From positions 1-64,000 of the forward strand of contig JAFXSQ010000005.1 of assembly GCA_017525525.1 (NCBI GenBank): DNA of 64,000 nucleotides, in the 5' to 3' direction. The stretch's first letter is position 1. Every line of letters starts with the position of its first letter. The notes beneath the pieces were generated by a model that saw only the letters and a program-made list of their open reading frames with translations, searched no databases and was not told where the DNA came from. A program made the position numbers and the translations under genes. The stretch is from Lachnospiraceae bacterium (GTDB taxonomy: Bacteria > Bacillota > Clostridia > Lachnospirales > Lachnospiraceae). Of this stretch, positions 35,558 to 60,597 are shown one piece after another.

Positions 35558-38500
35558 CTATTTGTAAAACTCTTTAAACGCCTTCACCATCTCTGCGCCG
35601 CTTATCTCCTTCTCCTCAAGGAGTCGGTCGGCTAAGGCACTTATGAAATCCTTATGCTTCTGTATGATCTCAGTCGCGCGCTTGTCCTCCTCTTTAAGGA
35701 TATCAAGTGCATTGCCTTCTCCGAGCTCACCCATCGCAAAGTCTTTTATCATGCTCCGCGCAGTCTTCTTTGCATATTCATAATCCTGGGATACACCCGT
35801 TGCGTTCTCTCCGAAGAATACACGCTCGGCATTTCTTCCTCCGAGGCACTCGGCTATAATATTTCGAAGCTTCTTCTCTGTCATGCTGCCGGGGGCCTGT
35901 TTACCCATCTGAACACGCCCAAAGCTTACCGCACCGCTTCTCACACTTATATTCTCAGGTATATTCTTTTTGTCAACGATATAGCCGACTACCGCATGAC
36001 CGCACTCATGGATAGCAGTTCTCCTTTTCGACTCTTTTGTGAGCTCCTTCGGATCATAAAGCTGGTCACGGTTCGGAGCAGTATCAATAAGCTCCTTGTA
36101 GCCCGGGATATCCTTCACCTGAATCTCCTTGTAGCCTTTGGGTGAATTGATATCAAACCTTGCCGCTCTCTTAAGGATAATCTGATGTATCACATGATCC
36201 ACGAATCGGCCGTTTCCGAAATTCGGAATCTCACTGAAGTAACACATCAGTTCATGTATCTTATTTCTTGCCGCATCCTTTGTTACAAGACCGTAACCAT
36301 CCATCTTCTTGTCGTATATCTGCAAAAGTTCTTCAGGTGTGTAGTCTTCAAAGCTAAATGTATAGCCTATGCGTGACATAATGCCCGGATTACTCTTTAA
36401 GAATTTTTCCATCTCATTTGTATATCCTGCAAAGATGAATACCGTATCCTCCTTGTACTCCTCCATGGCAGTAAGCAGCACCTCGATTGCCTCGTGCCCA
36501 AAACCGTTACCGGAATCACGCGAGTTACCATCAGTCAGAGAATATGCTTCGTCTATAAACAGAACTCCTCCGCGAGCACGTTTTATAACCTCAGCTGTTG
36601 TTCCCGCCGTTTTTCCTACATATCCGCTCACCAGATCTTTCTTTTCGGCGACCAGGAGCCGGTTAGACTTCAGGATTCCGACCGAATAAAGATCATCAGC
36701 TATCATCTTCGCTACTGTAGTCTTGCCTGTACCGGGATTTCCCGTAAATAACATATGCATCGAGAAGGCGGGCAGGTTCACTCCATGCTCCCTTAAATAC
36801 CTCTGGTAGATAACCTGCTGCTTAAACTCGTCAAGCTTCTTTTTCAGACTTTCGAGACCTATCATATCGGCTATTCCGATTTCTCTTTTCTCCGGCATGA
36901 TTGCCTCAAAGTCTTCTTTCCTGATAACTCTGTCTTCACTGCTTAAGGTACCGTTCAAGCCTTCGCTCTCACCGTATATTCTCTTGGCCCAGGCTCCCTT
37001 GACCTGGCCGAAGATATTTCTCACTTCGCGCGCATTGCCGAAGAACTCCCCCGAACGCTTCGACATAATGCAATTCTCCAGACTGTGAACCGCACCATCA
37101 TCAATCTTTAAGTCTTCAGAATCGCATAAGCTTTTGAATATATCAACAAGTTCTTCAGGGCTATAATCCTCAAACTCTATTTCTGTCTCAAACCGGCTGT
37201 TCAAACCCGTGTTTGACTTCATAAGGCTTCGCATCTCTTCCTTGTACCCGGCCATTATAACCAGCAGATCATCCGGATGATTCTCCATGGCGATGAGCAC
37301 CTCCTGAAGAGCCTGCATTCCCCGGTCTCCGTTGTTGATAAAACCATAGGCCTCATCTATGAAGAGCACTCCTCCATAAGCACTCTCTATCACAGTTTTT
37401 GCCTTTACATTTGTTGCCGAGTCCCAGTATGACATAAGATCCGACGGTTTCGTCTCCTTAAAAATCCTTTTCTTGACAAGGCCCATGGAGTAGAAAAGCT
37501 CACTGATTCTTCTTGCAACCGTCGTCTTGCCCGTCCCCGGATTTCCGGTGAATTTCATGTGCATGGGGCGTTTAGGCTTCTTCACCTTCGTACCCGCCTG
37601 CTGCTCCACCAGATAGTCGGTATACATACTTTTTATCTTTTCCTTCACCTTCTTCAGACCGATCAAATCATTCATCGATTCAATCACAGCCTCGGGAGTC
37701 TGCATATCGGCCTTGTACTTGGGGATACAATCCTTAGTGTACACATAATCATCCCTGAGTTTTTCGTAATAAAGCGTGAGTATACGGTTCTTAAGGTCTG
37801 TCACGAACCTCATTCCCTTCAAGTCCGCATCACGATATATAGCTTCAATATATATTTTAAGCGCCTTAGCAAAACCCGGTTCCATCCCGAATTCCGATTC
37901 TTGTTCAAGCGTACTCAGAGTTTTCTTCCATACCTGTTCCACAGTCATGGAATCTACATATACATGATACTTAAAAGTCCGGTATCTCAGTTCATTTTCC
38001 TCTCTGTAGCTCTCCCTGAATATTCTTCGGCTGGTCACTATAACAAAAGGAATTCTCGGATACTTCTTTGCAAACTCGATAAGAGTTTCAAAGCCCTCTT
38101 TGAATTTCCTGTATTCCTCCTTCTCTTTCTCCTGCGCGCTTCCGGTCCCGGTTTCAACGCTAACGGTAGGATGGGTTTTAAAATCCTTTACGCAAAGCAA
38201 CGCAACAGGATCAGACACTCCAAAAGAATCATCATCCCTTTCGAAATAACGGCAATACTCCTTCAATCTGTGTGCTTCTGTAGAGTAGACTGCCCCCTTT
38301 ACTCCGATCAGATTCTTCAGATATGGTATAAAATCTTCAGAGTAATCCGATTCCTCCTCATAGACAAGTATCAGGTTATTATACGGCGACGTTATTCCTC
38401 TATGCATCTCATAATCGGAATTGATTCTAAGCTTTCCGGTAACAAAAGCATCAAGCTTCTCATACGAATATTCGTTGATATTAAGCCCCTCTTTTTCTAC

Positions 38501-39928
38501 ATATCTCCGTAGCTGTCCCTTCTTGCTCAATATCCGGTTGTTCGCATATATATCCTCATCGCGCAATGCACCCGCATACCTGCGACTCCTGAGTCTGTGC
38601 GGGAGTGTATCCTCAGCTACATAACTATATAGCTTCATAAGCTCATCGGCAGCATCGCTTTCAGATATATTCTTACCTGCAAGCTGAACCATGTAATCAT
38701 GAGGATTGTCATTCCACATCTCAAGGTAAGCCTCTTTAAGTGCTTTCTTATCTCCTGTCAAGTCCCACAAATGAGAACTCTTTTTTCTGTAAATCTCATA
38801 TAAGACCGGTTTCTTTAAGTACATATCCGTAAAAAACATCTTTTTCTGATGTTCTTCACTCTCATCCATTGTCTTGTATATATCGCTTGTGCTATTCACG
38901 CGTTCTTCAATGTATTCATCCATGTCTCCGGCTTTAATATGACGAAAATGCTCAAAGGCTCTCTTTGCTCCCCATGCAAGGCATGCGATTTTAAGCTCCG
39001 CCGGAATGAACTTCCCGATATACCCTCCATCCGGTACGCAGATGTCTATCAACAGTAAAGCAAGTGTGTTATGCTTTGCCAAAGCAAAAGCCGCCGCCTT
39101 GCTTTCGTGGTACCTACACTCGAATATTCCATTTTCCAGAAGAAATGCATCGGCTATTCTTTCAAGCTCCTTACTTCCTCTCGGATACACAGCAAGCACA
39201 CATTCAAGCATCTTGAAAATGTGTAGCATATCCAGGCGTTCTCTCAGGTTACCGAGCACAGAACGATAGTTAGAGAAATAGATTTCCACATCATCAGGTG
39301 TCTTGTATAGCTCACTGATTTGATCGTAATCCATTCCCCTGACGAATCTGTCATAACAAAAAACAGGAATAAGACATTTACCCAGAAGGGCGATTGCCTC
39401 CCTGCTCATCTCACACGCATGTGACAAATCATTCCCGTATTTCTCATGATAGGCAACAACCTCAGCCTTCACTTCCGGCTTAAGAAGATACTCCTCACCA
39501 AAAAGCAGTGTTTTGTAAGCTATCGGGTACTTCAACACATCCATATATTCAAGCTTTCCCATGAGCAGGCCATAACAGATGTAGCTTCCGTGTTCATGCG
39601 GAAACAGCTCTTCTATCTGTCTTATGGAGAGCGCTACAATCAGCTCATTGCCAGACACCGTTTTGTACTTGTTATCACCCGAAAGATACTCATTTAATTC
39701 CGGAAGTATCTCACTCACATACCTGTACTGAAGGTATGAACGAACCGGGCCGCATCTTAATCTGTAATCATCGTTGGGTGTCTTAAGATTAGAAAGCTTC
39801 ATAGCACCATTGGCAAGCTCGGATAACCTCTTTTTGACAAATGAATCTGCCCCGTTTTTATCATCCTTTACATGCATGATACCGAACTCATCAAGTTCAA
39901 CATTCAGTTTTAATCCACCAAAATCCAT
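35558..39928 (-). CDS. Giant tandem-AAA+ / M41 zinc protease, paralogue 1 (module B)
   Basis: 1456 aa. Residues 1-510 are a helical region I do not recognise, opening with GGLKLNVELDEFG. About 515-675 looks like a degenerate AAA+ domain: NNLILVYEEESD in the P-loop position, then PVALLCVKDF and PFVIVTSRRIF as Walker B and sensor 1 equivalents. Two CbxX/SpoVK-type AAA+ domains follow, with FTGNPGTGKTT at about 795 and 1061 and GVLFIDEAYG/S Walker B motifs. The C-terminal 200 residues are a FtsH-type M41 peptidase: HECGHAVVG (about 1307) and GVSQDYEYA, whose Asp should be the third zinc ligand. There is no membrane helix, unlike FtsH. Last gene of module B, 7 bases after the Dna2-like gene. Likely an ATP-driven protease or remodeller; substrate unknown. 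Confidence 0.85.
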   Translation of the reverse strand: MDFGGLKLNVELDEFGIMHVKDDKNGADSFVKKRLSELANGAMKLSNLKTPNDDYRLRCGPVRSYLQYRYVSEILPELNEYLSGDNKYKTVSGNELIVALSIRQIEELFPHEHGSYICYGLLMGKLEYMDVLKYPIAYKTLLFGEEYLLKPEVKAEVVAYHEKYGNDLSHACEMSREAIALLGKCLIPVFCYDRFVRGMDYDQISELYKTPDDVEIYFSNYRSVLGNLRERLDMLHIFKMLECVLAVYPRGSKELERIADAFLLENGIFECRYHESKAAAFALAKHNTLALLLIDICVPDGGYIGKFIPAELKIACLAWGAKRAFEHFRHIKAGDMDEYIEERVNSTSDIYKTMDESEEHQKKMFFTDMYLKKPVLYEIYRKKSSHLWDLTGDKKALKEAYLEMWNDNPHDYMVQLAGKNISESDAADELMKLYSYVAEDTLPHRLRSRRYAGALRDEDIYANNRILSKKGQLRRYVEKEGLNINEYSYEKLDAFVTGKLRINSDYEMHRGITSPYNNLILVYEEESDYSEDFIPYLKNLIGVKGAVYSTEAHRLKEYCRYFERDDDSFGVSDPVALLCVKDFKTHPTVSVETGTGSAQEKEKEEYRKFKEGFETLIEFAKKYPRIPFVIVTSRRIFRESYREENELRYRTFKYHVYVDSMTVEQVWKKTLSTLEQESEFGMEPGFAKALKIYIEAIYRDADLKGMRFVTDLKNRILTLYYEKLRDDYVYTKDCIPKYKADMQTPEAVIESMNDLIGLKKVKEKIKSMYTDYLVEQQAGTKVKKPKRPMHMKFTGNPGTGKTTVARRISELFYSMGLVKKRIFKETKPSDLMSYWDSATNVKAKTVIESAYGGVLFIDEAYGFINNGDRGMQALQEVLIAMENHPDDLLVIMAGYKEEMRSLMKSNTGLNSRFETEIEFEDYSPEELVDIFKSLCDSEDLKIDDGAVHSLENCIMSKRSGEFFGNAREVRNIFGQVKGAWAKRIYGESEGLNGTLSSEDRVIRKEDFEAIMPEKREIGIADMIGLESLKKKLDEFKQQVIYQRYLREHGVNLPAFSMHMLFTGNPGTGKTTVAKMIADDLYSVGILKSNRLLVAEKKDLVSGYVGKTAGTTAEVIKRARGGVLFIDEAYSLTDGNSRDSGNGFGHEAIEVLLTAMEEYKEDTVFIFAGYTNEMEKFLKSNPGIMSRIGYTFSFEDYTPEELLQIYDKKMDGYGLVTKDAARNKIHELMCYFSEIPNFGNGRFVDHVIHQIILKRAARFDINSPKGYKEIQVKDIPGYKELIDTAPNRDQLYDPKELTKESKRRTAIHECGHAVVGYIVDKKNIPENISVRSGAVSFGRVQMGKQAPGSMTEKKLRNIIAECLGGRNAERVFFGENATGVSQDYEYAKKTARSMIKDFAMGELGEGNALDILKEEDKRATEIIQKHKDFISALADRLLEEKEISGAEMVKAFKEFYK

Positions 39929-39935
39929 TATACCG

Positions 39936-42900
39936 TCACCTAATCCTTTTTCTGTATATGTTGAGGCTTACGCCATCCTCAAGTTCAAATACCGCGCTGC
40001 TTACCTCGGTGTCATCCTCTTCCTTTTGCATGAACGGAAGCAGTCCGCACACAAACTCGATACCCTTCTGTAAATCCTCATCTTCAGTGTCTAACATAGT
40101 AGACGAAGGTGTCGTAAGCACCTCGGAAAAGACGGTTATCGACTTACATTTAGCTCTTGTCAGTGCGACATTGAGCCTGTTGCGGTTAAAGATAAACTCT
40201 CCCTCTGTAACTGCGCTCTCAAGGTCGGTAACACCATAGCTTACTATGACTGCATCTCTCTGCTGCCCCTGAAGCTTATCCACGGTACCTATAAACAGAT
40301 TACTTCTGTCCATACCGGTTTCAGTGCTTATCTTATCCTTTAGCTTTTCTATGTGCCTGTGATGTGGCGAAACTATGCCCAACACTCCATCTATGCTTTC
40401 AGTACCGCGCCAGAAAGCTTCCTCGGTTTCCGCATGCACCGAATTCCTAATAGCATCCGTAAGCACAGTTACAACCCTTCGCTCAGTGTCCTCTTGCTGC
40501 TTAAGCGTTCCGCCACTTATCTTACAGAAAACCATCGGCCAGTAATCCGGTGTATTCTCAAAACTATCAAGCATATAAGTCAGCCACGGCATATCTTCAT
40601 CTGCCACATCTTCAGGTACACCCTCATAGTTAAGTCTGCGGTTTGCAACCTCACCGTCTCTGCCACCATGGGATCTGTATCTGCTTCCGTATATCTTCTC
40701 AGCTGAATATCTTAGGATTATCTCATTCATCCTGAAATTCTCTTCAAGCATAATTCGATTTTCTTCATGATCAAGAGCTTTAGCCCTGTAATAAGAGAAT
40801 ACAGAACCATATTCATAAGCCTTGTCCGAATCCGTGCCATAACGCCCCTGAATAATAGCCGGAAGCTGATCATCATCTCCGACAAGAAGATATCTGCTTC
40901 GCTCCACATCACCCATGTACATCGCAAGCATCGCATCCATAACCCTGAGCTGTGAAGCCTCATCGATTATGATCAAATCAAATCTTTCTTGTCTTTGTCT
41001 ATTATTGTTTTTCACAATATTTGCGCATGACCACACGGTTGCGCCACATACAAGAGGCCGTTCCACATCATCCGCTCTCATCACATCGTAAATAGTAGCT
41101 CCATAATCCGAGTTTTCCTCTGTTACAGAAACATTCTCAATAGATTCATCCTCAAGACGATTTGACTTGTATAAACTTATGTCCCTTCGCTCACCTATCT
41201 TCTTAGATAACATCCGAAGAATATTCTCTATAGCCGAATGTGTGTTGGCTGTTACCAGCACTCTTAAGTTTCTATTCTTTTCAGCTTTATAATATCTGCA
41301 CAGCGTTATTATTGCCCTTGCAATAAAGTCTGATTTTCCTGTTCCCGGAGGCCCCTGAAGCACTGTCATTCTCTTCTCGTACAGATGCGTGAACGCGTTC
41401 CTCTGAGATTCCGTAAAATTACAATTACCAATATTACTGTATGAAAACATTCCATCCGAGAAGTCATCCTCAATAAGATCCTCGGTCAGAAGTCTTACAT
41501 CCTCCGGTCTCTCAAGCAACAGCCTGCTTGTATCCGGCGGATTGCCTTCCTCGTCAATTATGTCAAATGTATCAAACAGCTTCTTACTGTTAATGTCCGT
41601 ATATCTTAAGGATACATAATAATCCTTACCGACATCGGCTGCTGAAATGTTTCCTCTTGCAACATCCCCGGTTATCACAATATGATTTGCATCTCTTTCA
41701 TACTTAGGGATGTTCACAACATTTACACGTTCGGGAAACCATCCGGCTATGAAAAGGTTTTTGAATCTGTAATCCTCATATTTATACAGTTCCTCAACAT
41801 CATCAACTTCAACAAAAACTATCGAGATCCACTTGTCCCTTACGACATCCGTGTTACCCTCAGCAAACAGGGTTATTCTGGTTTTTTGATATCTTCCGAC
41901 CTGAACAACACGGCAATCCGTCAGTGTCATCCTTAATACATCTCCGGTCTCCATAGCAGCCTCAACTCCCTGCAGGCGCGCCTGTCTTATCTGCTGATAT
42001 TGATAAAGTGATTCGTTTTTAGCCTCAAAAAACCACTTGCGCAAAAGACGGTTTTGATAACCGGCTCTTCCGGGGAGCACAAAATTATTAAGCTTTCTGA
42101 CAAGTCTGCCGTTTTCAGCCCCTGCTTTCTGGAGCTTTCTGACTATTCCGGTTTCCGCAACAAGGCGTTTGTGAATATGCTCACATATCAAGTCTGTTGA
42201 CACCTCTAAGCCTTCACACTCTGTTTCGCCGTTCCAAACAGCATGTATTGCATCGGAGCGCATGGTATTCGTTAGTGCATCAAAGAAAAGCCTGTAATCT
42301 ACTCTGTTAAAAACCATTCCTCTGGGAACAAAGACATTCATAGAATTCACAACCTCCGGAAGCCGATATGCAACCGGAAGCGGAAGACTCACCAGTTTTC
42401 TCAACTCATTGCTTATGACTATTATAGGGAACTCTCCTACATCGTCCGGCTGCTCCTCAGTGCCGTCTACTACCCTGTCACCCTGCAGCCACAAAAGAAC
42501 GGATATGATTCTGTTGATTATCTCCTCATCGTTTTCAAGACTGTCCAAAGCCTCGTACAAGGCCTCCTCTAAGTTCATAAGCTCATAAGAATCCATGACA
42601 TAAGCTTGAACGGATTTTTGAATTCCACCATTTCCCTCATCATAGCTTTCAAGTATTTCATACAAACGAGTAATAAAATCTCTCAGGTTGTTAAAATAAG
42701 CTTCCTCCGAATCATCCTCCATAACAAAAGCTTCAAAGCTTTCTCTCCACGGTCCGTTATTATCCTCATTACCCTGAGCCTCACCGTTTCTTTCGTAAAA
42801 CAATGTATTAATTCCGAATACATATACCCTGTTATCTCCGGCGTATTTCTGCGCAGTAAGCACAATCGCAACATCCTGCCACTTCGGCATGGTAAATGAC

Positions 42901-44042
42901 CTGTGTTCCTTCCATGTATAACCTATCCATCTCAACTCATTAAAATCAGTCGAATACGGAACAGCTCTTCTTTGTACCTCAAGCGTAACCCCATCGCCTA
43001 AGATCATATCCCATGAACGGTTGCTTGAAAGAGTGTCCTTATTTTCCTCAACTGCGGCATAATCCGCAAATTCAGGTATGGTTTCCGGAGCATTAAGCCT
43101 TTCGGCATAGGCCTGCGCATATTCGGAAAGATACGGAATAAGCTTTATACTTCCCTGTTCTTTCAACTCTCTCATGCACTGTTTGTAATTCTGACACCAC
43201 TCACATTTGGGACCGACACATCTTTTCAATTCACTTTTAAGCGTCTGCTCTTCTCCGTTCACAAGAGCCTCTTTTGCTTTATTCACAAGCTCCGGAAGCA
43301 CCTCGGAAAAATACATATCAAGAAGACCGTTCTCCTCTTTTAATTCAAACGGTCTTTCCGCATCCTGTCCTCCGTTCCACAGATAACCAGTGTCGGTATT
43401 TACTATTGCATCTATTTTCTTATCATCTTCAACAGCCGCATTATACTCGTCAATCAAGGCTTCAAGCATCTTTACATACAAAGCAACCTGCACCTTATGT
43501 GCAAGCTTCATCCGCCTTGCCAGCTTGACATCTATAACAGAGAGCATAACCCTATTATTATCCTCAGACCACTCGGCACTGATTAAATCCGGGTAAGCCT
43601 TCGGGATATCCACATTAAGATTATCATCCTCCCCGTTATACAGACTCTCATCAAACCTGAACCATTCTGCTTTAAAGCCTTCCGATGCCTTTAGATACCC
43701 TTGGTACAGATACTCCGTTTCATGCGTCACTTTCACCGACTCCGCAATCCTTCGAAGCTCTTCCATGGTCTCGTCATATGTAAACTTGAGATACGACAAT
43801 CTCCCGTCCTTAACCTCAGTCTTCGCATGCAGCTTCTCCTGAGGAATAATCTCCGAGGCAACCTTCTCCTCCCACTTCTCACCTGCCTGCGCAGCAATCG
43901 GGCTTCCCGTACCGGTCGGATCATCCAATTCAAAGCTCCTGCGCCCGGCACTCTTTAAACCTCCGTAGAACAGGTTTCTTTCACACTTATGGACAAAATA
44001 CTCCTCAACACATTTTGAAGGTTTGAGTTCGAATTCAATCAT
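39936..44042 (-). CDS. Dna2-like protein: Fe-S RecB/Cas4-type nuclease plus UPF1-like SF1 helicase
   Basis: 1368 aa. The N-terminus is a PD-(D/E)XK nuclease with an Fe-S cluster: Cys11/Cys20, AYPDLISA (about 150), VIDVK (about 170), HKVQVALY, and the cysteine cluster CVGPKCEWCQNYKQC (about 276-290). A long middle region contains no motif I recognise. The helicase starts near 890: GPPGTGKSD, IIDEASQL, LLVGDDDQLP, LEENFRMN, GTVDKLQGQQRDAV, LNVALTRAK. This is the Dna2/NAM7 layout. GGAGGA precedes the ATG. It lies between the DUF2357 nuclease and the AAA+/M41 gene. It should unwind and cut DNA or RNA; the polynucleotide type cannot be told from sequence. Confidence 0.87.
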   Translation of the reverse strand: MIEFELKPSKCVEEYFVHKCERNLFYGGLKSAGRRSFELDDPTGTGSPIAAQAGEKWEEKVASEIIPQEKLHAKTEVKDGRLSYLKFTYDETMEELRRIAESVKVTHETEYLYQGYLKASEGFKAEWFRFDESLYNGEDDNLNVDIPKAYPDLISAEWSEDNNRVMLSVIDVKLARRMKLAHKVQVALYVKMLEALIDEYNAAVEDDKKIDAIVNTDTGYLWNGGQDAERPFELKEENGLLDMYFSEVLPELVNKAKEALVNGEEQTLKSELKRCVGPKCEWCQNYKQCMRELKEQGSIKLIPYLSEYAQAYAERLNAPETIPEFADYAAVEENKDTLSSNRSWDMILGDGVTLEVQRRAVPYSTDFNELRWIGYTWKEHRSFTMPKWQDVAIVLTAQKYAGDNRVYVFGINTLFYERNGEAQGNEDNNGPWRESFEAFVMEDDSEEAYFNNLRDFITRLYEILESYDEGNGGIQKSVQAYVMDSYELMNLEEALYEALDSLENDEEIINRIISVLLWLQGDRVVDGTEEQPDDVGEFPIIVISNELRKLVSLPLPVAYRLPEVVNSMNVFVPRGMVFNRVDYRLFFDALTNTMRSDAIHAVWNGETECEGLEVSTDLICEHIHKRLVAETGIVRKLQKAGAENGRLVRKLNNFVLPGRAGYQNRLLRKWFFEAKNESLYQYQQIRQARLQGVEAAMETGDVLRMTLTDCRVVQVGRYQKTRITLFAEGNTDVVRDKWISIVFVEVDDVEELYKYEDYRFKNLFIAGWFPERVNVVNIPKYERDANHIVITGDVARGNISAADVGKDYYVSLRYTDINSKKLFDTFDIIDEEGNPPDTSRLLLERPEDVRLLTEDLIEDDFSDGMFSYSNIGNCNFTESQRNAFTHLYEKRMTVLQGPPGTGKSDFIARAIITLCRYYKAEKNRNLRVLVTANTHSAIENILRMLSKKIGERRDISLYKSNRLEDESIENVSVTEENSDYGATIYDVMRADDVERPLVCGATVWSCANIVKNNNRQRQERFDLIIIDEASQLRVMDAMLAMYMGDVERSRYLLVGDDDQLPAIIQGRYGTDSDKAYEYGSVFSYYRAKALDHEENRIMLEENFRMNEIILRYSAEKIYGSRYRSHGGRDGEVANRRLNYEGVPEDVADEDMPWLTYMLDSFENTPDYWPMVFCKISGGTLKQQEDTERRVVTVLTDAIRNSVHAETEEAFWRGTESIDGVLGIVSPHHRHIEKLKDKISTETGMDRSNLFIGTVDKLQGQQRDAVIVSYGVTDLESAVTEGEFIFNRNRLNVALTRAKCKSITVFSEVLTTPSSTMLDTEDEDLQKGIEFVCGLLPFMQKEEDDTEVSSAVFELEDGVSLNIYRKRIR

Positions 44043-44117
44043 CAGCTATCCTCCATTTTTTCAGTCTTCCGCAATTCCATCATACATTTCCCGAGTAACC
44101 TCCGTTGGCATTTTCTC

Positions 44118-46355: not shown

Positions 46356-46372
46356 TTAATGATTATCTCCTT

Positions 46373-49970: not shown

Positions 49971-50369
49971 CTAAAGAACCTTAAACGTACAGTGAGGCTT
50001 TGTCGTCCCGTTTTCGTCCGTTATTTCTGTCTTTTCAACGTTTATATAATGGCTGCTTTCACCTATAATATCATTGAAATTCGTGCGTAATCCCCGCCAT
50101 TTTACTTCTCTGGCGATCATTTTCACCTGACTGCTGCCTTTCGGCAATGAATCAATCAATCCCATTAATACATCACGCTCATTTTTAGCCTCCTCAAGAA
50201 CAGCTGCCTTATTCAGATTTCCTAACGCGTCTATCGGATCTTCCCCAAGCATGGACACCGGATTCGAAGAATAAGTCCTGGTTATAAAACTGAGCCAGTA
50301 GCATTTTAAATTCTTTATTTCTTTTCTATGTTTCAGGCTTGCTTTTAACCTTTTGATCCATTCAAACAT
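49971..50369 (-). CDS. Unknown 132-aa protein upstream of the McrB genes
   Basis: Not recognised. The sequence is basic at the start (WIKRLKASLKHRKEIKN), then mixed alpha/beta, with …VKWRGLRTNFNDIIGE… and a C-terminal beta-rich end (YINVEKTEITDENG…). There are no Cys clusters or catalytic motifs. The SD is weak (AGGAT). Its A+T-rich composition matches the McrB genes, so I count it with module B, although it could equally be a remnant. Confidence 0.6.
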   Translation of the reverse strand: MFEWIKRLKASLKHRKEIKNLKCYWLSFITRTYSSNPVSMLGEDPIDALGNLNKAAVLEEAKNERDVLMGLIDSLPKGSSQVKMIAREVKWRGLRTNFNDIIGESSHYINVEKTEITDENGTTKPHCTFKVL

Positions 50370-50407
50370 ACAAATACAATCCTATCTGTTCTTCTCTTTA
50401 TCAACAA

Positions 50408-51037
50408 TCAGAACCCCAAACTATCGTTAACCAAAATAACATGAATCCTGCCGGCGTGTCTTGAGAAACGGGTAATCAGGAACTGGCAGCAGATGGTGTC
50501 CGGAGACTTGCAGTTAAAGCAGGAGCCTGTCTTAGCGCACGGGGTTGAGAGGCCGAAGCGCTGGGCGTTGATCGGAGCGGCGACATTACGTGCTCTCTTC
50601 ATGGCACCGTCTAAATCATCGCACACCTTATTCATGCCCACGATAAAGATGACCTTCTTCGGTCCCTGGGCGATGGCCGAAACACGGTTTGAGTTACCGT
50701 CTATGTTCACAATCACGCCGTCCTCCGTTATCGCATTCGCGCTTGACAGAAAGAAGTCCGCGTCATAGGCCATAAGCATTGCAGCGCGCTTGTCCTCGTA
50801 AGCATCACGGTCGATGAAGTTATAGTTTCCGGTCTTAAGCTTCTCCACAAGACCTATCTCGTGCGCGCTCATGCATCCGCCCATAGTAACGGAGCTTCCT
50901 TCCGGGATAAGGTCTAAAGCAAGCTTAACGGCCTCCTCCTTATCCTTTGCATAATAACCGGTCATGTTCCTTGAATTTATCCCTGCTATAACCTTCTGCG
51001 CCAAAAGTTCATTTCTCTTGTAAATATTTTCGTTCAT
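50408..51037 (-). CDS. LUD-domain (DUF162) protein
   Basis: 209 aa. LUD proteins occur in lactate-utilisation complexes (LutC-like); short clostridial forms are of unproven function. Features seen: SVTMGGCMSAHEIGL, ANAITEDGVIVNIDGNSNRVSA, a Cys-rich stretch near the C-terminus (CAKTGSCFNCKSPDTICC), and the ending …RIHVILVNDSLGF. GGAGGT lies 5 bases before the ATG. It has a core-genome style repeat just upstream and looks like a resident gene between the two accessory modules. Confidence 0.88.
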   Translation of the reverse strand: MNENIYKRNELLAQKVIAGINSRNMTGYYAKDKEEAVKLALDLIPEGSSVTMGGCMSAHEIGLVEKLKTGNYNFIDRDAYEDKRAAMLMAYDADFFLSSANAITEDGVIVNIDGNSNRVSAIAQGPKKVIFIVGMNKVCDDLDGAMKRARNVAAPINAQRFGLSTPCAKTGSCFNCKSPDTICCQFLITRFSRHAGRIHVILVNDSLGF

Positions 51038-51048
51038 AATATACCTCC

Positions 51049-51112
51049 ATAAGCTCCTTCGCTTATCTCAGGATGACACGTGTCATTCTATGGGCTTTAG
51101 CCCGAAGAAGCA
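51049..51112. repeat. Dispersed palindromic repeat, copy 8, inside the island
   Basis: AAGCTCCTTCGCTTATCTC, the perfect palindrome ATGACACGTGTCAT, then GGGCTTTAGCCCGAAGAAGC. It lies between the 663-aa gene and the LUD gene, and is the only copy of the family right of 33 kb. Confidence 0.65.
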
Positions 51113-51134
51113 TTTTTTACTTCACCTTATGCTG

Positions 51135-53126: not shown

Positions 53127-53148
53127 AGTCTCTCTCCGTTTATTTTTT

Positions 53149-56100
53149 TTACTTTCCGCACAATCCCTTCACATAACAGGTCGCGCACTTTTCACTCCTG
53201 CATTTTGGAAGATTATTATTCCTTATGTTGTTTGCCGCGTCGATTACGCCCTTTCGAACGCTTTCAAGCACTTCCTGCTTTACCTCTTCCCTGGCGTTCT
53301 TTGAACCGTCCGGGTGGTCAAGATTGTATATCTCAAGATAGTCAGCCTTCTTTCCCGTGGCATTCTCATAACCCAAAGCATATATCTTGAGCTGTTCGGC
53401 ATTCAGACACTGTTCGGCATCCTTGCCCGCGGACTTTAAGTCTACTATGGATACTTTCTCCGCCCCCGCATCATCAACAGCTTTAACCAGGTCTATTCTT
53501 CCGTTCACGCTCACGCCCTGACCCATCTCAAGGTTGATGTTCATCTCCGAAGCGATTACCTTGTCGGCATTGGCCTCGTTCTGCTTCACATAAGCTTCGG
53601 CGCATTTTTTTGCGCCTACAAGAGACTTTTTAAGCTGTGCGCTGTTGGCATAAGGCAGGAAAAGCGCCTCCTCGGCTATTTTATCTATCTGAGCCTTATT
53701 CGGTCTTCTGCCCTCTATCCATGCGCGATGTATGTGCATCATTATCTCATGAAGCACCTTGCCGTAGCCCTGGACATCCTTGTACGGCTGCACGAAGCCG
53801 TAGAAGTTCGACAGCTTAAACCTGTACGGACAGTCGTAATAATTCGATAATAGCGAAAAGTTCAGTACTATCGGAAGCGGGTCACTGTTCATCTCGGGCA
53901 GGCGCTCGGCTGTATAAGTATGCTCATCCGAGTACTCCTTAAGATATGCCGACTTCTTTGCTTCATCAAGAAAACGCGCCGGAATCTGTGACTGTGTACC
54001 GTAAGCCTCACTGTATGTCATAAAAAGGTATTTCTTAGCCCTTGTTATAGCAACATATACCAGCTTCCTTGCATCCTCTGTTCTGTTGCCAAAAACCTCA
54101 TAATTCGGAATCCAGTCTGTAACATTTTTTCCTGCAATATACTCTATCGCGTCAACCGCGCCGTAGATTTTGCCTTGCTTTAGCATTTTATCTCTTTCAT
54201 AAGGCTTCATATTATCCCTATCGTAGATTTCCTTAACCATAGCAGGGATGAAAACAACCGCAAACTCCAATCCTTTAGACTGGTGTATGGTCATTATTCT
54301 TACCGCATCGGAACGTATGTATGAATTATCGTCCTCTCCCTTTGCGTAGAGTCCGTCCGCAACCTCGTTAATATGATTCACAAACTTCGCAAGCTTGACG
54401 GTAGCCATATCCGTAAAGAACATTTTTTCAAAATCGGATATTACCCTGCTTGTCATGCCGAGATTATACATGACCTGCTCTGCGGCCTCGTCGCCTTCCA
54501 TGTTGATCACATTCAGATAGCCGATGAACTCCTGGTATATGCTCTGGATATTAAAATCCGAACCGAATTTCTTGGCACTCCAGTCCGTATCCTCAATATA
54601 ATTCAGTGCCTTGTCGATTCCATCTGTTAAGCCTTCGCGGCCGTAATACTTATCTATCTCAAGCCAAAAAGCTTTAGTTTCATTATACGCCTCATCATCC
54701 CTTTCAAGCTCGTCCTTGCGCTTGAACCTGTATATGGTTTTTGATTTGGTTCCATCTCCTTCTTCCGCAGGAATAGATTTCGATACGAAGTACCTTTCTT
54801 TGATGTACCTGAAAAGCGCGGCAAAAGCCTTATATTCCGGTGTCCTGTAAAGCGCATTCATGCCCTCCACCTCATAAGGTATTCCCTCAGCTTTAAGCTT
54901 TTCCGCAAGTACACCCTGGTACTCAACCACAGTTTCGCCGAAATATAAGTACTCCCTGTTTCTTAACAATACAGCCATCTCCGAATAGGGAATTCCCAAA
55001 CCATGTAATTCCTTTATCCTCGCAACCATAAAGTCAGCTTCCTCATTATAGTTTGCGAAGCTCTTCCACACTGTATCTCCGGGTTCATACTCGAGCGCAT
55101 AGCCCGGCCTTTTTCCCCTCTCCATCCTTTTATAGCCTGTATCTTTGATGTGATTATTCCCTATAACCGCATTCGCTATATCGATAACCGCCTCTGTGCT
55201 GCGGAAATCCAAATTCAGATAAAACCTCTCTGCACCGTACTTATCAGCAAACTCAATTATATTCTTCTCGTCGCTTCCCCTGAACTGATATATGGTCTGG
55301 TCGGCATCTCCCACAACACAGACATTGGTATCCCGGCCATACTCTTTTCCGTACTTTTTGAATAGCTCGACAAGCTTCTCCTGTGACGGATTGCAGTCCT
55401 GATACTCATCTATGGTAAGATACTTAACACGCTCATATATCTTGGCCGCAACAGGATCCATCACTCCGTGGTTTACCTCCGAGTCCGGATCCAGGAGCTC
55501 GATCATCTTTCTTATAACTCCCGAAAAATCAAAGTACTTATCTTCAGAAAGCGCCTTATTATAATTTGTCACATATCCCTTCAGTCGATCGTCCCAGTTG
55601 TCCCTGTGCTCGACGGAAAACCAGCTTTGATTAAGCATCGATACAAGATCGATATACAGCTTCAGTTTTTTACCATAGCTCTCTACATATCGATAACCGC
55701 TTATGTTCCGGTCATATTTTTTATTGAGATTAAACGCCTTATCGATAACCGATTTCTTAAACCCGGTTGCATCCTCTCCCATGCTTTTTCTCTCTATGAA
55801 CACCCTCGCCTGAATCTCATCAAGCACACTGTACTTCGCGTACTCGGGCACATAGTCCTGAAGCATATTCAGGCAAAACGCATCTATCGTGCCGATGAAC
55901 ATATCCGCGAAACCAACCGTGCTTTTCAGATACTTTTCGCCCGCAGCGTATATTCTTGATTTAAGCTCCGTTGCCGCCTTCCTTGTAAATGTAATGGCGA
56001 CGATACTCTTCGGATCAACCCCGTCATCAATCAGATTGACGATACGCAGTGTAACCGTCTTCGTCTTCCCCGCGCCCGCGCACGCGATAATCTCAAGGTC

Positions 56101-56187
56101 ACGGTCTGTGCACATTACCGCAGCATACTGTTCACCGGTAAGCTTCTTTTCCTGCTTTTCTTTCTTCAAATCCTCTTTGATGCCCAT
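53149..56187 (-). CDS. UvrD-like SF1 helicase with C-terminal Fe-S PD-(D/E)XK nuclease
   Basis: 1012 aa. SF1A helicase: LTGEQYAAV (Q motif), ACAGAGKTKT (35-44), LTIDEYQDCNPSQ, VVGDADQTIYQFRGSD, IMTIHQSKGLEF and VYVAITRAK. C-terminal RecB/AddB-type nuclease (about 770-1012): NYYDCPYRFK, GKVLHEIMMHIH, NGRIDLV, VSIVDLKS, QLKIYALGY, and the final CRSEKCATCYVKGLC. With the earlier Cys this makes a four-Cys Fe-S site as in AddB and Cas4. It is not a normal AddA because no addB is adjacent and it is embedded between the AAA+/M41 protease and the 663-aa protein. It should unwind and degrade DNA ends. Confidence 0.9.
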   Translation of the reverse strand: MGIKEDLKKEKQEKKLTGEQYAAVMCTDRDLEIIACAGAGKTKTVTLRIVNLIDDGVDPKSIVAITFTRKAATELKSRIYAAGEKYLKSTVGFADMFIGTIDAFCLNMLQDYVPEYAKYSVLDEIQARVFIERKSMGEDATGFKKSVIDKAFNLNKKYDRNISGYRYVESYGKKLKLYIDLVSMLNQSWFSVEHRDNWDDRLKGYVTNYNKALSEDKYFDFSGVIRKMIELLDPDSEVNHGVMDPVAAKIYERVKYLTIDEYQDCNPSQEKLVELFKKYGKEYGRDTNVCVVGDADQTIYQFRGSDEKNIIEFADKYGAERFYLNLDFRSTEAVIDIANAVIGNNHIKDTGYKRMERGKRPGYALEYEPGDTVWKSFANYNEEADFMVARIKELHGLGIPYSEMAVLLRNREYLYFGETVVEYQGVLAEKLKAEGIPYEVEGMNALYRTPEYKAFAALFRYIKERYFVSKSIPAEEGDGTKSKTIYRFKRKDELERDDEAYNETKAFWLEIDKYYGREGLTDGIDKALNYIEDTDWSAKKFGSDFNIQSIYQEFIGYLNVINMEGDEAAEQVMYNLGMTSRVISDFEKMFFTDMATVKLAKFVNHINEVADGLYAKGEDDNSYIRSDAVRIMTIHQSKGLEFAVVFIPAMVKEIYDRDNMKPYERDKMLKQGKIYGAVDAIEYIAGKNVTDWIPNYEVFGNRTEDARKLVYVAITRAKKYLFMTYSEAYGTQSQIPARFLDEAKKSAYLKEYSDEHTYTAERLPEMNSDPLPIVLNFSLLSNYYDCPYRFKLSNFYGFVQPYKDVQGYGKVLHEIMMHIHRAWIEGRRPNKAQIDKIAEEALFLPYANSAQLKKSLVGAKKCAEAYVKQNEANADKVIASEMNINLEMGQGVSVNGRIDLVKAVDDAGAEKVSIVDLKSAGKDAEQCLNAEQLKIYALGYENATGKKADYLEIYNLDHPDGSKNAREEVKQEVLESVRKGVIDAANNIRNNNLPKCRSEKCATCYVKGLCGK

Positions 56188-56208
56188 AGAATAATTCCTC
56201 CGAAATTA

Positions 56209-59200
56209 TCACTTCTTCTTGTAAAACTCCTTAAACGCCTTCACCATATCCTCGCCGCTTATCTCTTTTTCCTCAAGCAGTCTTTTGGCGAAATATTCTA
56301 TAAAGTCCTTGTGCTTGATGATAAGTTCCGTCGAGCGCTTGTCCTCTTCCTTCAGGATGTCCATGAACCTTACTTCTCCGAGTTCGCCCATGGCGTAGTC
56401 CTTTACCATGCTTCTTGCTATGCGCTTTGCGCGGTCGTAGTCGCTTAATACACCGGTAGCATTCTTTTTGAAGAATACGCGTTCAGCATTCCTTCCGCCA
56501 AGTAACCCCGCTATCTCATCGCGCAGTTCATCCTCGGTAAGGCTGCCGGGAGTTCTCTTGCCGAACACCACACGGCCATAACTGGACGCGCCGCTTCTCA
56601 CGCTTATCTTATCCGGAACATGCTTCTTGTTCAGTGCATACCTTACAACTGCATGGCCGCACTCATGGATTGCAGTTCTATATTTTGATTCAGCGGTTAT
56701 CTCCGAAGGATCGTAGAGCCTGTCACGGTTTGGCGCAGTTTCGATTATCTCCTTATGTCCCGGTATATCTTTTGCAAGGATTTCCTTGTACCCGGTGGCT
56801 GAGTTGATATCAAATCTTGCCGCTCTCTTCAAGATAATCTGATGAATCACATGGTCCACAAAGCGACCGTTTCCAAAATTCGGTACCTCGCTGAAATAGC
56901 TCATCAGCTCGTATATCTTCTTTCTTGCAGCCTCCTTAGTCACAAGTCCGTAAGCTTTCATCTTGCTGTCGTATATCTCCATAAGCTCATCCGGCGTATA
57001 ATCCTCAAAGCTGAAGGTATATCCTATTCGCGACATTATACCGGGGTTGCTCTCAAGAAATTCCTGCATCTCATGAGTGTATCCGGCGAAAATGAACACC
57101 GTATCCTCCTTGCACTCCTCCATAGCTGTGAGCAACGCCTCCACCGCCTCGTGTCCGTGACCGCGCATGCCGTTATCGGTAGCTTTTCCGCCGTCCGTCA
57201 GCGAATATGCCTCGTCTACGAACAGGACTCCGCCCCTGGCCTGCTTAACCATCTCTGCAGTCTTCTTCGCTGTCTCTGCCACAATTCCGGTAACGAGATC
57301 CTTCTTTTCGGCAACCACAAGCCTGTCAGACTTCAGTATTCCTACAGAGTACAGATCTTCCGCAATCTTTTTTGCAACCGTCGTCTTTCCGGTACCGGGA
57401 TTTCCGGTGAATACCATGTGCATTGAGAAGCCGGGCAGGTTCACTCCATGCTCTCTTAAGAACTTCTGGTACACAACCTGCTGCTTGAATTCCTCAAGCT
57501 TCTTCTTAAGCTCCGTCAAGCCGATCATGTCCGTGATTCCGAGTTTTCTCTTCTCCGGCATGATTGCTTCGAAATCTTCTTCAGTTATCTCTCTCTTTTC
57601 CGGAATCATATCCGCGGAAAAGCTTTCGCCCTCTCCGTATATTCTTCTCGACCAGGCATCCTTTACCTGAGTGAAGATATTTCTTATCTCCCTTGCGTTC
57701 CCGAAGAATTCACCCGAGTGCTTTGACATGATGCAGTTCTCAAGGCTGTGCACGGCATCGTCCGCAAGTGTCATGTCCTCCGCCTTACACATCTCCCTGA
57801 ATATACTCACAAGCTCTTCGGTTGAATAATCTGCGAATTCTATCTCATCCGTAAACCTGCTTGACAAACCCGGATTGCTCTTCATCAGGCTTCGCATCTC
57901 GTCTTTATAACCTGCCATAATAACCACGAGATCGTCCGGATGGTTCTCCATGGCTATCATAATCTCATCCAAAGCCTGTTGTCCTTGATCGCCGTTATTG
58001 ACAAAGGCATAAGCCTCATCTATAAACAGTACCCCGCCGTAAGCCTTCTCTATCACGCTCTTTGCTTTCATTCCGGTGGCCGCGCCCCAATGAGACATCA
58101 GGTCCGAAGGTTTTATCTCGACCAGTTTTTTCTTCCTGATAAGTCCCATGGAATAGTAAAGCTCCATAAGTCTTCTTGCAACCGTTGTCTTGCCGGTACC
58201 CGGATTGCCCGTGAACTTCATATGCAGCCGGCGCTTTTCCCTTTTTTTCCCGCGGTCCGCCTTGTTAACAAGCAGATTAGTGTATATGCTTTGCAGCTTT
58301 TCCTTTACATTTTCAAGTCCGATGAGGTCTTTCAACGACTCCAGCACAACTTCAGGTGTCTGCGCATCCGCGCTGTACTTCGGTATGCAGTCCTCAGTGA
58401 TTTCATGACCACTTCTGAGTTTTTCGTAAAATAGCGTAAGTATGCGGTTCTTAAGATCTCTCACGAAGGGCATGCCCTTAAGATCCGCATCACGATAAAT
58501 GGCATGGATATACTTCTTCAGCTCATTCCTGAACTCCTGCTTAATTGAAAAAGCGTCCTCGTAATCCAACATACGAAGAGTTCTCTCCCATACCTGCTCC
58601 TCACTCATAGCCTCAATGTACACATGATACTTGAATGCCCGATATATGAGCTCGGTATTCTCCTTATAGCTTTCCCTGAAAATGAACCGGTTTGTCACTA
58701 TGATAAACGGACACCTCGGATTATCCCTCGTGAATCTTAAAAAGCTTTTCCATCCCTCCTGATATATCTCATATTCGCTTTTCTCACGTTCCAGCGCTCT
58801 TCCCGTTCCGGCCTCGACATTTATTGTCGGATGAGGCTTGAAGTCAAGAATACATACCAGTCCCTCAAGTTTTCTCCTCTTCTCTTCATCAGGAGTCGTA
58901 TAAGCCTCCGTGAAGCCAAGCAGATTATCCGCCCTTACAAACACTGGCCTTTTATTCCCCAAAATAAGCCTATTTAAATACTGCATCAGCTCAGGATAGA
59001 AATCAGCCTCATCCTCGCAGATAACGATTAGGTTATTACTCGGGTAACCTATATCATACTTCATATCGTAATCAGCGTTCATCTGAAGCTTACTCGTCAC
59101 AAAAGCACGGAGCTTCTCCATTGAGTGATCATTTATGTTTACGCCGTTAAAGTCTATAAATTTTACTAATTGCTCTGTTTTGTTCAGTATCTTGTTATGA

Positions 59201-60597
59201 TAATACTGATTTTTGTTTGCATCAGGATTTATGGACTTTGCGCCTTCTATCATATGTATGGTTTTATCCTCGGGATCATTACTGTAGAGCTTCATGATTT
59301 CTTTAACCGCATCTACACCTGTAACCTCCCGACCCGACTGCTTTAGCGCGAACTCATCATAATTTTCCTCCCATGCTTCAAAATATATGTCTCTTATTTT
59401 TTCTATGTCAGGGAGCATCTCCCAAAGCTTATCGTTGAGCTTTCTGTATTGCTCGAATATAACAGTATTCTTAAAATATATATCTAGCTTAAAGAATCTC
59501 TTCTGTATCTCTTCAAGCTTATCAAGCGTCAGATAAAACCTTGCGAGTCCTTTTACGCTTTCCTCCTTGTATCTGTCAACCTTTTCGTTTATTTCTTCCT
59601 GAGAATAACCGTCTCCCAGAGAGAAAATCGTACATTTGCTCTTTCCTGCCCATGCTCTTTCTCCTATCAAAAGCCAGAACGGTTTTACCTCGAGCATATC
59701 ATAAAGCCACAGCGCCAGCAAATTGTCACCCGCAAGCTCGCAAGCTGCCTCCAGACCTTTTTCTTTCTCATATAACGTAAAGCTTTTATAAAGAACAAGC
59801 GCTTCGGATATCCTCTTTAATTCTTCACTGCCTCTCGGGAAAATCGCCAGTACCGAATCCAACATGTGAAATATCAGTCTTATATCCAGTCTCTCGGCCA
59901 CATTTTCCGCAACCCCGCCTATAGGCATGTTGTATTCCAGCTCACTCGGATGTTTATAAAAGCTTCTGAGAGCTTCTCTTGATGCTCCCCTGAAAACCAT
60001 GTCATACGCAAACACCGGTACAAGGCACTCCTTCAGCAGATAGAATGCGTTTTGACTCAGTTCTTTCTTCGAATGCGAGAGGTCATGCCCGTATTTATCG
60101 TGGTACGCCCTTATCTCCTCCACATACTCGGGTTCGGCATATATGGCATCTCCGGGAAGGCCATACTCTCCGGGTAACTTGTATGTCATAGGATAATTCA
60201 ATGGATCCACATAGGACAGCTTGCCGTTAAGAAGCCCGTATACAATAGATGCACCATCTATGAAATAAAAAAGCTTTACGATTTCGTTCAAGGCTATCGC
60301 GGCTATTGCCTCATTTTTTGAAAAGAGCTTTTCCTTTCCGCTGCTTTTAAGCTCCTCTTCTATAACCGGCATGATTTCATTCACACTTGCGAACCAGTGA
60401 TACAGCTCCGAAACGCCGAATCTGCGGTTCATCTCCCGGTAAGGACCGCCCATTTCCGCAAGCCTCAGCGCATCAGTCACAAGCTCAGCAAGTTTTTGAT
60501 CAAACGCAGGCCTGCGCCGCTTACTTCTCTCGCCCACATGCATCGCTCCGATTTCATCGAATTCTATGTCCAGTTTTAGTCCCCCGATGTTTATCAT
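56209..60597 (-). CDS. Giant tandem-AAA+ / M41 zinc protease, paralogue 2 (module A)
   Basis: 1462 aa, collinear with paralogue 1 over its whole length and clearly homologous (both begin …GGLKL..E.DE.G.MHV and end …MVKAFKEFYK). Residues 1-515 are an unrecognised helical region. About 520-677 is a degenerate AAA+ (NNLIVICEDEAD, GLVCILDF, PFIIVTNRFIF). Active CbxX/SpoVK AAA+ domains carry FTGNPGTGKTT near 797 and 1064. The M41 peptidase has HECGHAVVR (about 1312) and GVLSDYDRAK (third zinc ligand Asp). No membrane helix. Its ATG lies 44 bases inside the end of the 414-aa gene, so translation is coupled. It sits directly before the UvrD-nuclease gene. The two proteases may have separate substrates or build mixed complexes. 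Confidence 0.85.
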   Translation of the reverse strand: MINIGGLKLDIEFDEIGAMHVGERSKRRRPAFDQKLAELVTDALRLAEMGGPYREMNRRFGVSELYHWFASVNEIMPVIEEELKSSGKEKLFSKNEAIAAIALNEIVKLFYFIDGASIVYGLLNGKLSYVDPLNYPMTYKLPGEYGLPGDAIYAEPEYVEEIRAYHDKYGHDLSHSKKELSQNAFYLLKECLVPVFAYDMVFRGASREALRSFYKHPSELEYNMPIGGVAENVAERLDIRLIFHMLDSVLAIFPRGSEELKRISEALVLYKSFTLYEKEKGLEAACELAGDNLLALWLYDMLEVKPFWLLIGERAWAGKSKCTIFSLGDGYSQEEINEKVDRYKEESVKGLARFYLTLDKLEEIQKRFFKLDIYFKNTVIFEQYRKLNDKLWEMLPDIEKIRDIYFEAWEENYDEFALKQSGREVTGVDAVKEIMKLYSNDPEDKTIHMIEGAKSINPDANKNQYYHNKILNKTEQLVKFIDFNGVNINDHSMEKLRAFVTSKLQMNADYDMKYDIGYPSNNLIVICEDEADFYPELMQYLNRLILGNKRPVFVRADNLLGFTEAYTTPDEEKRRKLEGLVCILDFKPHPTINVEAGTGRALEREKSEYEIYQEGWKSFLRFTRDNPRCPFIIVTNRFIFRESYKENTELIYRAFKYHVYIEAMSEEQVWERTLRMLDYEDAFSIKQEFRNELKKYIHAIYRDADLKGMPFVRDLKNRILTLFYEKLRSGHEITEDCIPKYSADAQTPEVVLESLKDLIGLENVKEKLQSIYTNLLVNKADRGKKREKRRLHMKFTGNPGTGKTTVARRLMELYYSMGLIRKKKLVEIKPSDLMSHWGAATGMKAKSVIEKAYGGVLFIDEAYAFVNNGDQGQQALDEIMIAMENHPDDLVVIMAGYKDEMRSLMKSNPGLSSRFTDEIEFADYSTEELVSIFREMCKAEDMTLADDAVHSLENCIMSKHSGEFFGNAREIRNIFTQVKDAWSRRIYGEGESFSADMIPEKREITEEDFEAIMPEKRKLGITDMIGLTELKKKLEEFKQQVVYQKFLREHGVNLPGFSMHMVFTGNPGTGKTTVAKKIAEDLYSVGILKSDRLVVAEKKDLVTGIVAETAKKTAEMVKQARGGVLFVDEAYSLTDGGKATDNGMRGHGHEAVEALLTAMEECKEDTVFIFAGYTHEMQEFLESNPGIMSRIGYTFSFEDYTPDELMEIYDSKMKAYGLVTKEAARKKIYELMSYFSEVPNFGNGRFVDHVIHQIILKRAARFDINSATGYKEILAKDIPGHKEIIETAPNRDRLYDPSEITAESKYRTAIHECGHAVVRYALNKKHVPDKISVRSGASSYGRVVFGKRTPGSLTEDELRDEIAGLLGGRNAERVFFKKNATGVLSDYDRAKRIARSMVKDYAMGELGEVRFMDILKEEDKRSTELIIKHKDFIEYFAKRLLEEKEISGEDMVKAFKEFYKKK

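Follow-up and report, generated by a model that had tools for sequence, protein, structure and literature searches.

Two paralogous genes in a genome of the family Lachnospiraceae encode proteins that look like a new architecture of AAA+ protease, wherein two ATPase modules of the SpoVK/CbbX/EccA type are joined in a single chain to an M41 zinc peptidase. The genes, termed P1 and P2, lie intact on the minus strand of a 64-kb stretch of DNA (the window; contig C44:1-64000 of genome G000, an assembly of 3.19 Mb in 75 contigs that is ~99.7% complete by estimate). The architecture looks new because a 2023 preprint on the SpoVK-CbbX-EccA clade reports that these motors were found neither fused to nor associated with peptidases (PMC10659427). 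Our literature search, in which few subscription papers or bioRxiv preprints were covered, returned no CbbX/SpoVK-type AAA-M41 fusion among its top-ranked matches. On balance, the sequences suggest that P1 and P2 are cytosolic, self-contained ATP-dependent zinc proteases, most likely acting in conflict with phages or mobile DNA.

Architecture of the P1 and P2 proteins

The products of P1 and P2 align end to end with 56.7-58% identity, as expected from a preliminary description of this DNA that had called the two genes collinear. Their parts are listed below, where N1 denotes the beginning of the N-terminal region and AAA0 a probable degenerate AAA module.

35558-39928, minus strand: P1, N1 - probable degenerate AAA0 - AAA1 - AAA2 - M41, 1456 amino acids (Pfam, NCBIfam, motifs)
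38399-39928, minus strand: P1 N1 region, residues 1-510, without known domain, 39% identical to P2 (Pfam, PDB)
37694-38398, minus strand: P1 residues 511-745, probable degenerate AAA module without P-loop (hhalign, motifs)
36884-37693, minus strand: P1 AAA1, residues 746-1015, intact SpoVK/CbbX-type AAA+, Walker A 795-802 (Pfam, NCBIfam, motifs)
36074-36883, minus strand: P1 AAA2, residues 1016-1285, intact SpoVK/CbbX-type AAA+, Walker A 1063-1070 (CbbX structure match, Pfam, NCBIfam)
35561-36073, minus strand: P1 M41 peptidase domain, residues 1286-1456 (Pfam, NCBIfam, FtsH profile matches)
35996-36010, minus strand: P1 HECGH zinc/catalytic motif, residues 1307-1311 (alignment)
35783-35785, minus strand: P1 third zinc ligand, Asp1382 (alignment with the FtsH Asp)
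56209-60597, minus strand: P2, paralogue of P1 with the same architecture, 1462 amino acids (Pfam, motifs)
59062-60597, minus strand: P2 N1 region, residues about 1-512 (Pfam, alignment)
58357-59061, minus strand: P2 residues about 513-747, probable degenerate AAA module (alignment, hhalign)
57547-58356, minus strand: P2 AAA1, Walker A at residue 797 (Pfam, motifs)
56731-57546, minus strand: P2 AAA2, Walker A at residue 1065 (Pfam, motifs)
56212-56730, minus strand: P2 M41 peptidase domain, HECGH 1311-1315, Asp1386 (Pfam, motifs)

Pfam recognizes two AAA stretches, AAA_lid_6 and Peptidase_M41 (E = 1.3e-23 in P1 and 7.2e-23 in P2) in both proteins. The NCBIfam models, run on P1 only, include SpoVK, CbbX and EccA matches across two stretches (best spore_V_K, 6.5e-120) and an FtsH_fam match (2e-27) whose best stretch lies in M41. 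All of these fall below the curated cut-offs. Specifically, P1 scores 399, 378 and 355 bits with the SpoVK, CbbX and EccA equivalogs, whose cut-offs are 423, 459 and 467, and so belongs to none of them; FtsH_fam reaches 96 bits against a cut-off of 600. Furthermore, a profile of AAA2 plus M41 built from nine sequences matches the solved structures of CbbX (3.8e-65) and EccA1 (5.3e-58), and its M41 part matches FtsH. The AAA module that adjoins M41 finds its best matches among CbbX/SpoVK models rather than FtsH, and hence is not of the FtsH type.

The preliminary description had assigned to both proteins two active CbxX/SpoVK AAA+ domains and an FtsH-type M41 peptidase with a complete zinc site but no membrane helix, and the motifs bear this out. 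AAA1 and AAA2 retain Walker A, Walker B and sensor-1 in all six aligned proteins. The sensor-1 Gly-Tyr (GY), a feature of the SpoVK-CbbX-EccA clade according to the available text of PMC10659427, is invariant in both modules of all six, as is an Asn that aligns with the Asn of CbbX (N161 and N435 of alignment A4). A lid Arg is also invariant in both modules (R222 and R496 of A4); from its position in the lid we read it as the sensor-2 Arg, likewise a feature of the clade.

Profile matches to solved FtsH structures indicate that the C-terminal domain probably adopts the M41 fold. With a profile restricted to the lid and M41, FtsH is matched at 1.1e-27, and both HExGH and the Asp downstream of it line up; the zinc site of FtsH-type M41 peptidases (HExxH plus Asp) is present. 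HExGH and the Asp are invariant in nine of nine aligned sequences (P1, P2 and seven relatives). A membrane helix was predicted in neither P1 nor P2. Their maximum 19-residue hydropathy is 1.57 and 1.39, versus 2.79 and 2.48 in the two FtsH proteins of the same genome, and by this measure the N-terminal membrane anchor of FtsH is absent. Motif and profile together strongly support the view that P1 and P2 are proteolytic.

Like the FtsH/M41 AAA+ proteases (FtsH, YME1, AFG3L2), P1 and P2 have a C-terminal M41 domain with HExGH plus Asp that would be fed by a classical AAA+ motor. Unlike FtsH, they lack a membrane anchor, their motor is of the SpoVK/CbbX type with two active modules and a third that is probably dead, and their N-terminal region is large and of no known domain. 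Membership of the whole protein in FtsH was rejected on account of the AAA type and the missing anchor. The likeness to SpoVK/CbbX/EccA chaperones lies in the two AAA+ modules, which match by profile and share the sensor-1 GY and the putative sensor-2 Arg. Members of that clade, however, are described as chaperones without a peptidase. In the available text of PMC10659427, those characterized have narrow dedicated targets, and the motors are proposed to aid assembly, not degradation. In contrast, P1 and P2 show clade members joined to M41.

The preliminary description had also proposed a novel N-terminal region of about 500 residues. Some 510 residues do remain unmatched, but the region extends to about 745 residues, and its last ~235 resemble a degenerate AAA module. 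Searching Pfam with residues 1-745 gave nothing for P1 and, for P2, two matches that were both worse than 0.05; against the PDB there was a single match, with E 0.83. Residues 511-745 keep the order of elements of an AAA module, and the Walker A (P-loop) is absent in six of six proteins. When these residues were aligned by hhalign with a CbbX-type profile of 75 AAA modules, the part from sensor-1 to the lid matched with a probability of 46.7% (E 2e-4, score 35.3). Among the controls, 40 column shuffles reached no more than 21.9, residues 1-260 scored 14.5 and M41 scored 18.4; an earlier comparison with AAA1 alone had given a probability of 12%. This is moderate evidence that residues 511-745 are a degenerate AAA module, which we regard as probable. 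Residues 250-510 scored 30.6 against the same profile, so that the boundary of the dead modules, and even their number, is uncertain.

Identity between P1 and P2 is 39% in N1, 51% in AAA0, 69% in AAA1, 79% in AAA2 and 71% in M41; for P1 and its relative in genome G012 the values are 22, 39, 48, 64 and 56%. Between two paralogues of one genome, N1 thus differs about three times as much as AAA2 (61% versus 21%).

Distribution and history of the genes

The distribution of P1 and P2 strongly indicates that the genes are accessory. P1 has a match at E<=1e-50 in 15 of 37 genomes of the genus, and the CbbX-type AAA-M41 fusion, identified by reading the open reading frames (ORFs), occurs in seven of the 37. 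The fusion is not a conserved housekeeping protein, a finding that the preliminary description had named as one that would refute it. The full architecture is present in three genomes: G000 with two copies, G024 and G012. Fusion variants with other N-termini are carried by G014, G015 (two), G016 and G005, and the remaining listed matches in the genus stop at query residue 1286 or earlier and therefore comprise AAA only.

Beyond the genus, the lid+M41 profile was applied to a family sample of 299 genomes, where it found the genome of origin and one of the 298 others (G165; 8.5e-73, in an ORF of 524 amino acids). The next best match (1.1e-34) lies in a frame of FtsH-like length. At E<=1e-36 the genome of origin stood alone in the order sample (0 of 382 others) and in the phylum sample (0 of 387 others), in scans that scored up to six candidates per genome at a threshold set above the FtsH background, which would miss distant variants. 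When four candidates per genome were taken in the order and phylum samples, the listed non-self matches ended by position 316 of the 452 in the profile, and thus again comprise AAA only. In a scan of genome contigs, the best 80 of at least 490 relatives were mostly ordinary FtsH, and those of the fusion type were the G012 gene (L068), L069, L070 and probably L071, the last three being interrupted by contig ends. Three further loci (L078, L110 and L130), picked out by a P-loop pattern, were not counted as relatives, since their 623-644 amino acids and GNPGTGKTL motif are of ordinary FtsH size and P-loop type. The phage and plasmid matches listed for P2 cover the AAA part or, in some phages, extend from AAA2 to M41 with 22-27% identity, as expected of an FtsH.

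A tree of 52 M41 sequences pairs P1 with the G024 protein (100/94) and places P2 outside this pair (99/96), followed by the G012 protein (98/91). This topology rules out a simple tandem duplication as the origin of P1 and P2. Together with four others these proteins form an eight-member branch (100/99), and the HESGH-type variants are placed elsewhere with L070 and L071 (97/86). On this tree, which has many long branches, the fusion label needs two changes, and one change suffices in 7% of 200 bootstrap trees; the tree is compatible with one origin of the fusion or with two.

Relatives of P1 and P2 come and go as single genes, as seen from filled and empty versions of a chromosomal site between genes that we named nifU and PHP by eye. 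In G014 this site holds a gene for a 1256-residue AAA-AAA-M41 protein, whereas nifU and PHP are adjacent in G008, G023, G016 and G005. The other five of nine regions examined (G035, G020, G019, G002 and G018) lack this synteny. In G011 the site (L013:1465-3459) carries two open frames of 458 and 664 amino acids, the second of which encodes AAA-AAA without M41.

Genes around P1, P2 and their relatives

P1 and P2 belong to a co-directional run of 14 genes (the island) that extends from contig base 65490 to 35558 with gaps of -44 to 108 bp. A promoter and terminator scan gave results at chance level. The genes identified around P1 and P2 are as follows.

39936-44042, minus strand: SF1 helicase, UPF1/IGHMBP2-like, carrying an N-terminal PD..DxK motif plus four Cys, by eye Cas4/AddB-like (Pfam AAA_11/AAA_12)
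44118-46355, minus strand: McrC/CnuC-like nuclease, PD..DxK, four CxxC (PADLOC PDC-M26B 2.2e-14; no Pfam match)
46373-47395, minus strand: McrB-like AAA_5 GTPase, NxD motif (Pfam; PADLOC PDC-M26A 1.3e-51)
47400-49862, minus strand: McrB/CnuB-like GTPase with a coiled-coil-like region, NxD motif (PADLOC PDC-M26A 7.9e-47)
51135-53126, minus strand: HEC-07-like protein, 663 amino acids (PADLOC 5e-16)
53149-56187, minus strand: UvrD-type helicase with C-terminal PDDEXK_1 nuclease (Pfam)
60554-61798, minus strand: unknown protein of 414 amino acids, directly upstream of P2 (no Pfam, PADLOC or NCBIfam match)
61795-63108, minus strand: unknown protein of 437 amino acids (no Pfam, PADLOC or NCBIfam match)
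63141-64000, minus strand: unknown protein of 310 amino acids, extending beyond the window to contig base 64073 (51% identical relative in G024)

P1 begins 7 bp after the SF1 helicase gene, whose best PADLOC matches are MkoA (5.8e-34) and DpdJ (2.7e-33) and whose NCBIfam matches, PLuB helicase-like (1.8e-30) and IGHMBP2 family (3.6e-27), are below cut-off. P2 overlaps the upstream 414-residue gene by 44 bp and is followed after 21 bp by the UvrD-nuclease gene. At the head of the run, in P2's half, lies a VirD4/TraG-like ATPase gene (L026:1180-2490); a relative with 30% identity to it accompanies PcfJ-like and ClpP-like genes in the vicinity of the L069 copy. A LUD-domain gene (50408-51037) with host-like third-position GC divides the two halves of the island, a hint of two acquisitions.

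The segment 39936-49862 resembles a CoCoNuT block, comprising two McrB-like GTPases, a McrC-like nuclease and the UPF1-like helicase with its Cas4-like nuclease motif. NxD GTPases, McrC-like nucleases and UPF1-like helicases are all reported for CoCoNuTs in the available text of PMC11090510. NxD in place of NxxD is found in both McrB-like proteins of the island (TLNADE and TLNMDE). CoCoNuT McrC/CnuC proteins have DUF2357, PD-(D/E)xK and a zinc ribbon; the candidate in the island shows PD..DxK and four CxxC, but gave no Pfam match to DUF2357. A UPF1-like SF1 helicase, as in CoCoNuT types II and III, is present, with IGHMBP2 below cut-off and other helicase models matching too. No HEPN or TerY-like family was recognized by Pfam among the island proteins. 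The same text describes, in type III-A CoCoNuT extensions, SpoVK-family tandem AAA proteins with an inactive N-terminal module (PMC11090510). These share with P1 the tandem AAA, a dead first module (probable in P1) and the accompanying McrBC-like GTPase, McrC-like and UPF1-like helicase genes, but are described as ending in a leucine-rich repeat and a biotin-carrier-like barrel rather than M41, and as lying between von Willebrand factor A (vWA) genes.

Part of this neighbourhood recurs in G024, where the P gene again occurs with a HEC-07-like gene downstream (65% identical, two genes away) and with the 310-residue gene as the next gene upstream (51% identical). Between P and the HEC-07-like gene of G024, 14 bp after P, stands a gene for a second protease (L028:10606-14178), a soluble-looking protein of 1190 amino acids with a ClpA-like AAA_2, an FtsH-type AAA and M41. 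Near this copy, L028:1-7653 encodes a protein of at least 2551 amino acids with no Pfam or PADLOC match. HEC-07-like matches occur in six of the 37 genus genomes, most of the length being covered in four. In G018 and G025 one gene separates the HEC-07-like gene from that of a UvrD-type protein (~1000 amino acids; by eye in G025).

Possible roles and rival explanations

In the proposed mechanism, a target protein would be unfolded by a stack of two SpoVK/CbbX-type AAA+ rings and passed into an M41 peptidase ring, and the probable third, degenerate AAA module would sit above the two active rings. The fast-diverging N-terminal region may select the substrate, which could be a viral protein or a host protein that restrains a partner effector. 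That the proteins form hexamers, are active as proteases, choose substrates through N1 and serve in defence is our inference. A part in conflict is suggested because the genes are accessory and sit in G000 among helicase-nuclease and McrBC/CoCoNuT-like genes; these neighbours match the candidate defence models PDC-M26A/B and HEC-07 of PADLOC. Neighbours in two genomes, patchiness and N-terminal divergence make defence plausible, with moderate support. In line with the preliminary description, no described defence system with this fusion came to light: PADLOC models hit solely the AAA parts of P1 and P2, and no top-ranked paper of the literature search describes such a fusion.

Several observations weigh against this picture. 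Evidence for mobility is missing. The 78 HExGH ORFs from the best 80 viral-contig loci all lack a CbbX-type P-loop and are no longer than 900 amino acids, two narrower scans of viral contigs gave no fusion-type relative, and no phage or plasmid record spans 80% of P2. No exact repeat of 14 bp or more is shared between the two island borders. The region behind rlmB in 12 relatives has no match to an island gene, and synteny with G000 is broken there, leaving no clean empty site. The variable island of the preliminary description also holds in part. The GC content of the run (43.9%) is below that of the flanks (48.4% and 47.6%), but it is clearly unusual only in P1's half: third-position GC is 39-49% from a 132-residue gene to P1, whereas the TraG-like to HEC-07-like genes (49-60%) and the LUD-domain gene (62%) are near the mean of 58% (55-62%) for 11 housekeeping genes. 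The neighbours seen in G000 are not required: in G012 and G014 the relative stands by itself, surrounded by genes that by eye look like housekeeping ones. Within the motors, the Arg that CbbX has four positions after the invariant Asn is not kept: AAA1 modules have Asn, Ser or Lys there, AAA2 modules Met, Ala, Ser, Pro or Lys; an Arg at Asn+6 is kept in six of six AAA1 and five of six AAA2 modules, the exception being L069. The position of what we take to be the pore-loop Tyr of CbbX is an invariant Trp in AAA1 and Tyr in AAA2 of P1, G012 and L069, but is non-aromatic in AAA2 of P2, G024 and G014.

AAA+ proteases are mostly quality-control enzymes. The main rival explanation, to which we give a minor but real share of belief, is a horizontally acquired accessory protease for quality control or stress that removes damaged or aggregated cytosolic proteins and has no anti-phage role. 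The lone relatives in G012 and G014 fit this explanation, as do those in G005 and G015, flanked by an htpG-like gene on one side and cysS on the other; most of these gene names were given by eye, mrnC by BLAST. In Pseudomonas aeruginosa clone C, FtsH paralogues are reported to have been acquired horizontally (PMC10850787). Against this explanation stand the occurrence of the fusion in only seven of 37 genus genomes, the divergence of N1 relative to AAA2, which suggests changing targets, and the named neighbours in the window, which are nucleases, helicases and McrBC-like proteins, not chaperones. It is improbable, in our estimate, that P1 and P2 are instead dedicated to processing or remodelling their neighbours, cleaving or dismantling and thereby activating or clearing the adjacent helicase-nuclease or McrBC-like complexes. 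The close spacing with a different SF1 helicase bearing a nuclease motif beside each copy would suit such a role, as would the narrow targets of clade chaperones (PMC10659427, available text). Yet the gene after P in G024 encodes a second protease rather than a helicase, and neither a helicase nor a nuclease was seen by eye beside the G012 and G014 copies. That the proteins are non-degrading chaperones retaining the M41 ring solely as a scaffold seems very improbable: chloroplasts do contain inactive FtsH-like subunits (some PDB entries bear 'probable inactive' in their names), but neither HExGH nor the third zinc ligand varies among the nine sequences, even though some variants have only 31-33% identity to P1 over lid and M41.

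A more elaborate form of the conflict hypothesis, which we put forward only as an outside chance, is that the CoCoNuT-like block and its UPF1-like helicase find and cut phage RNA and P1 extracts and degrades nascent or phage proteins. P1 would then act at the stalled ribosome as a one-polypeptide immune counterpart of the p97-proteasome pathway, the N-terminal region would serve as an exchangeable module for recognition, and each paralogue would work with its own helicase-nuclease unit. If so, P1 would be the first example of a protease driven by a motor of the SpoVK/CbbX/EccA clade. In the AAA+/protease pairs known from bacterial immunity the two parts are separate proteins; were the island a defence locus, bacterial immunity would gain a soluble AAA+ protease that depends on zinc. 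The filled and empty chromosomal sites and the paralogous pair offer simple tests of N-terminal recognition.

Two other known systems were compared and set aside. IetAS, like P1 and P2, combines an AAA+ ATPase with a protease, and the IetA model matches P1 AAA2 at 1.6e-16. The IetAS protease is a separate subtilase-type protein, unlike the M41 domain that P1 and P2 carry in the same chain as AAA+. IteA reaches 52 bits on P1 against a cut-off of 510, and its partner was not recognized: Pfam found no subtilase among the 14 island proteins, although for six of them no family reaches its cut-off. An unrecognized partner among these six is possible. The FtsH-type MoxR-vWA ternary systems, proposed as conflict systems in the available text of PMC7159879, resemble P1 and P2 in placing a dead AAA (probable in P1 and P2) before an active classical AAA, but differ in their FtsH-type AAA and their MoxR and vWA partners, whereas P1 and P2 carry M41. 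Neither a vWA nor a MoxR family was found by Pfam among the same 14 proteins, with the six unmatched at cut-off.

Elsewhere in the window, at 33714-34637, ispD is apparently fused to a C-terminal Cys_rich_CPCC domain.

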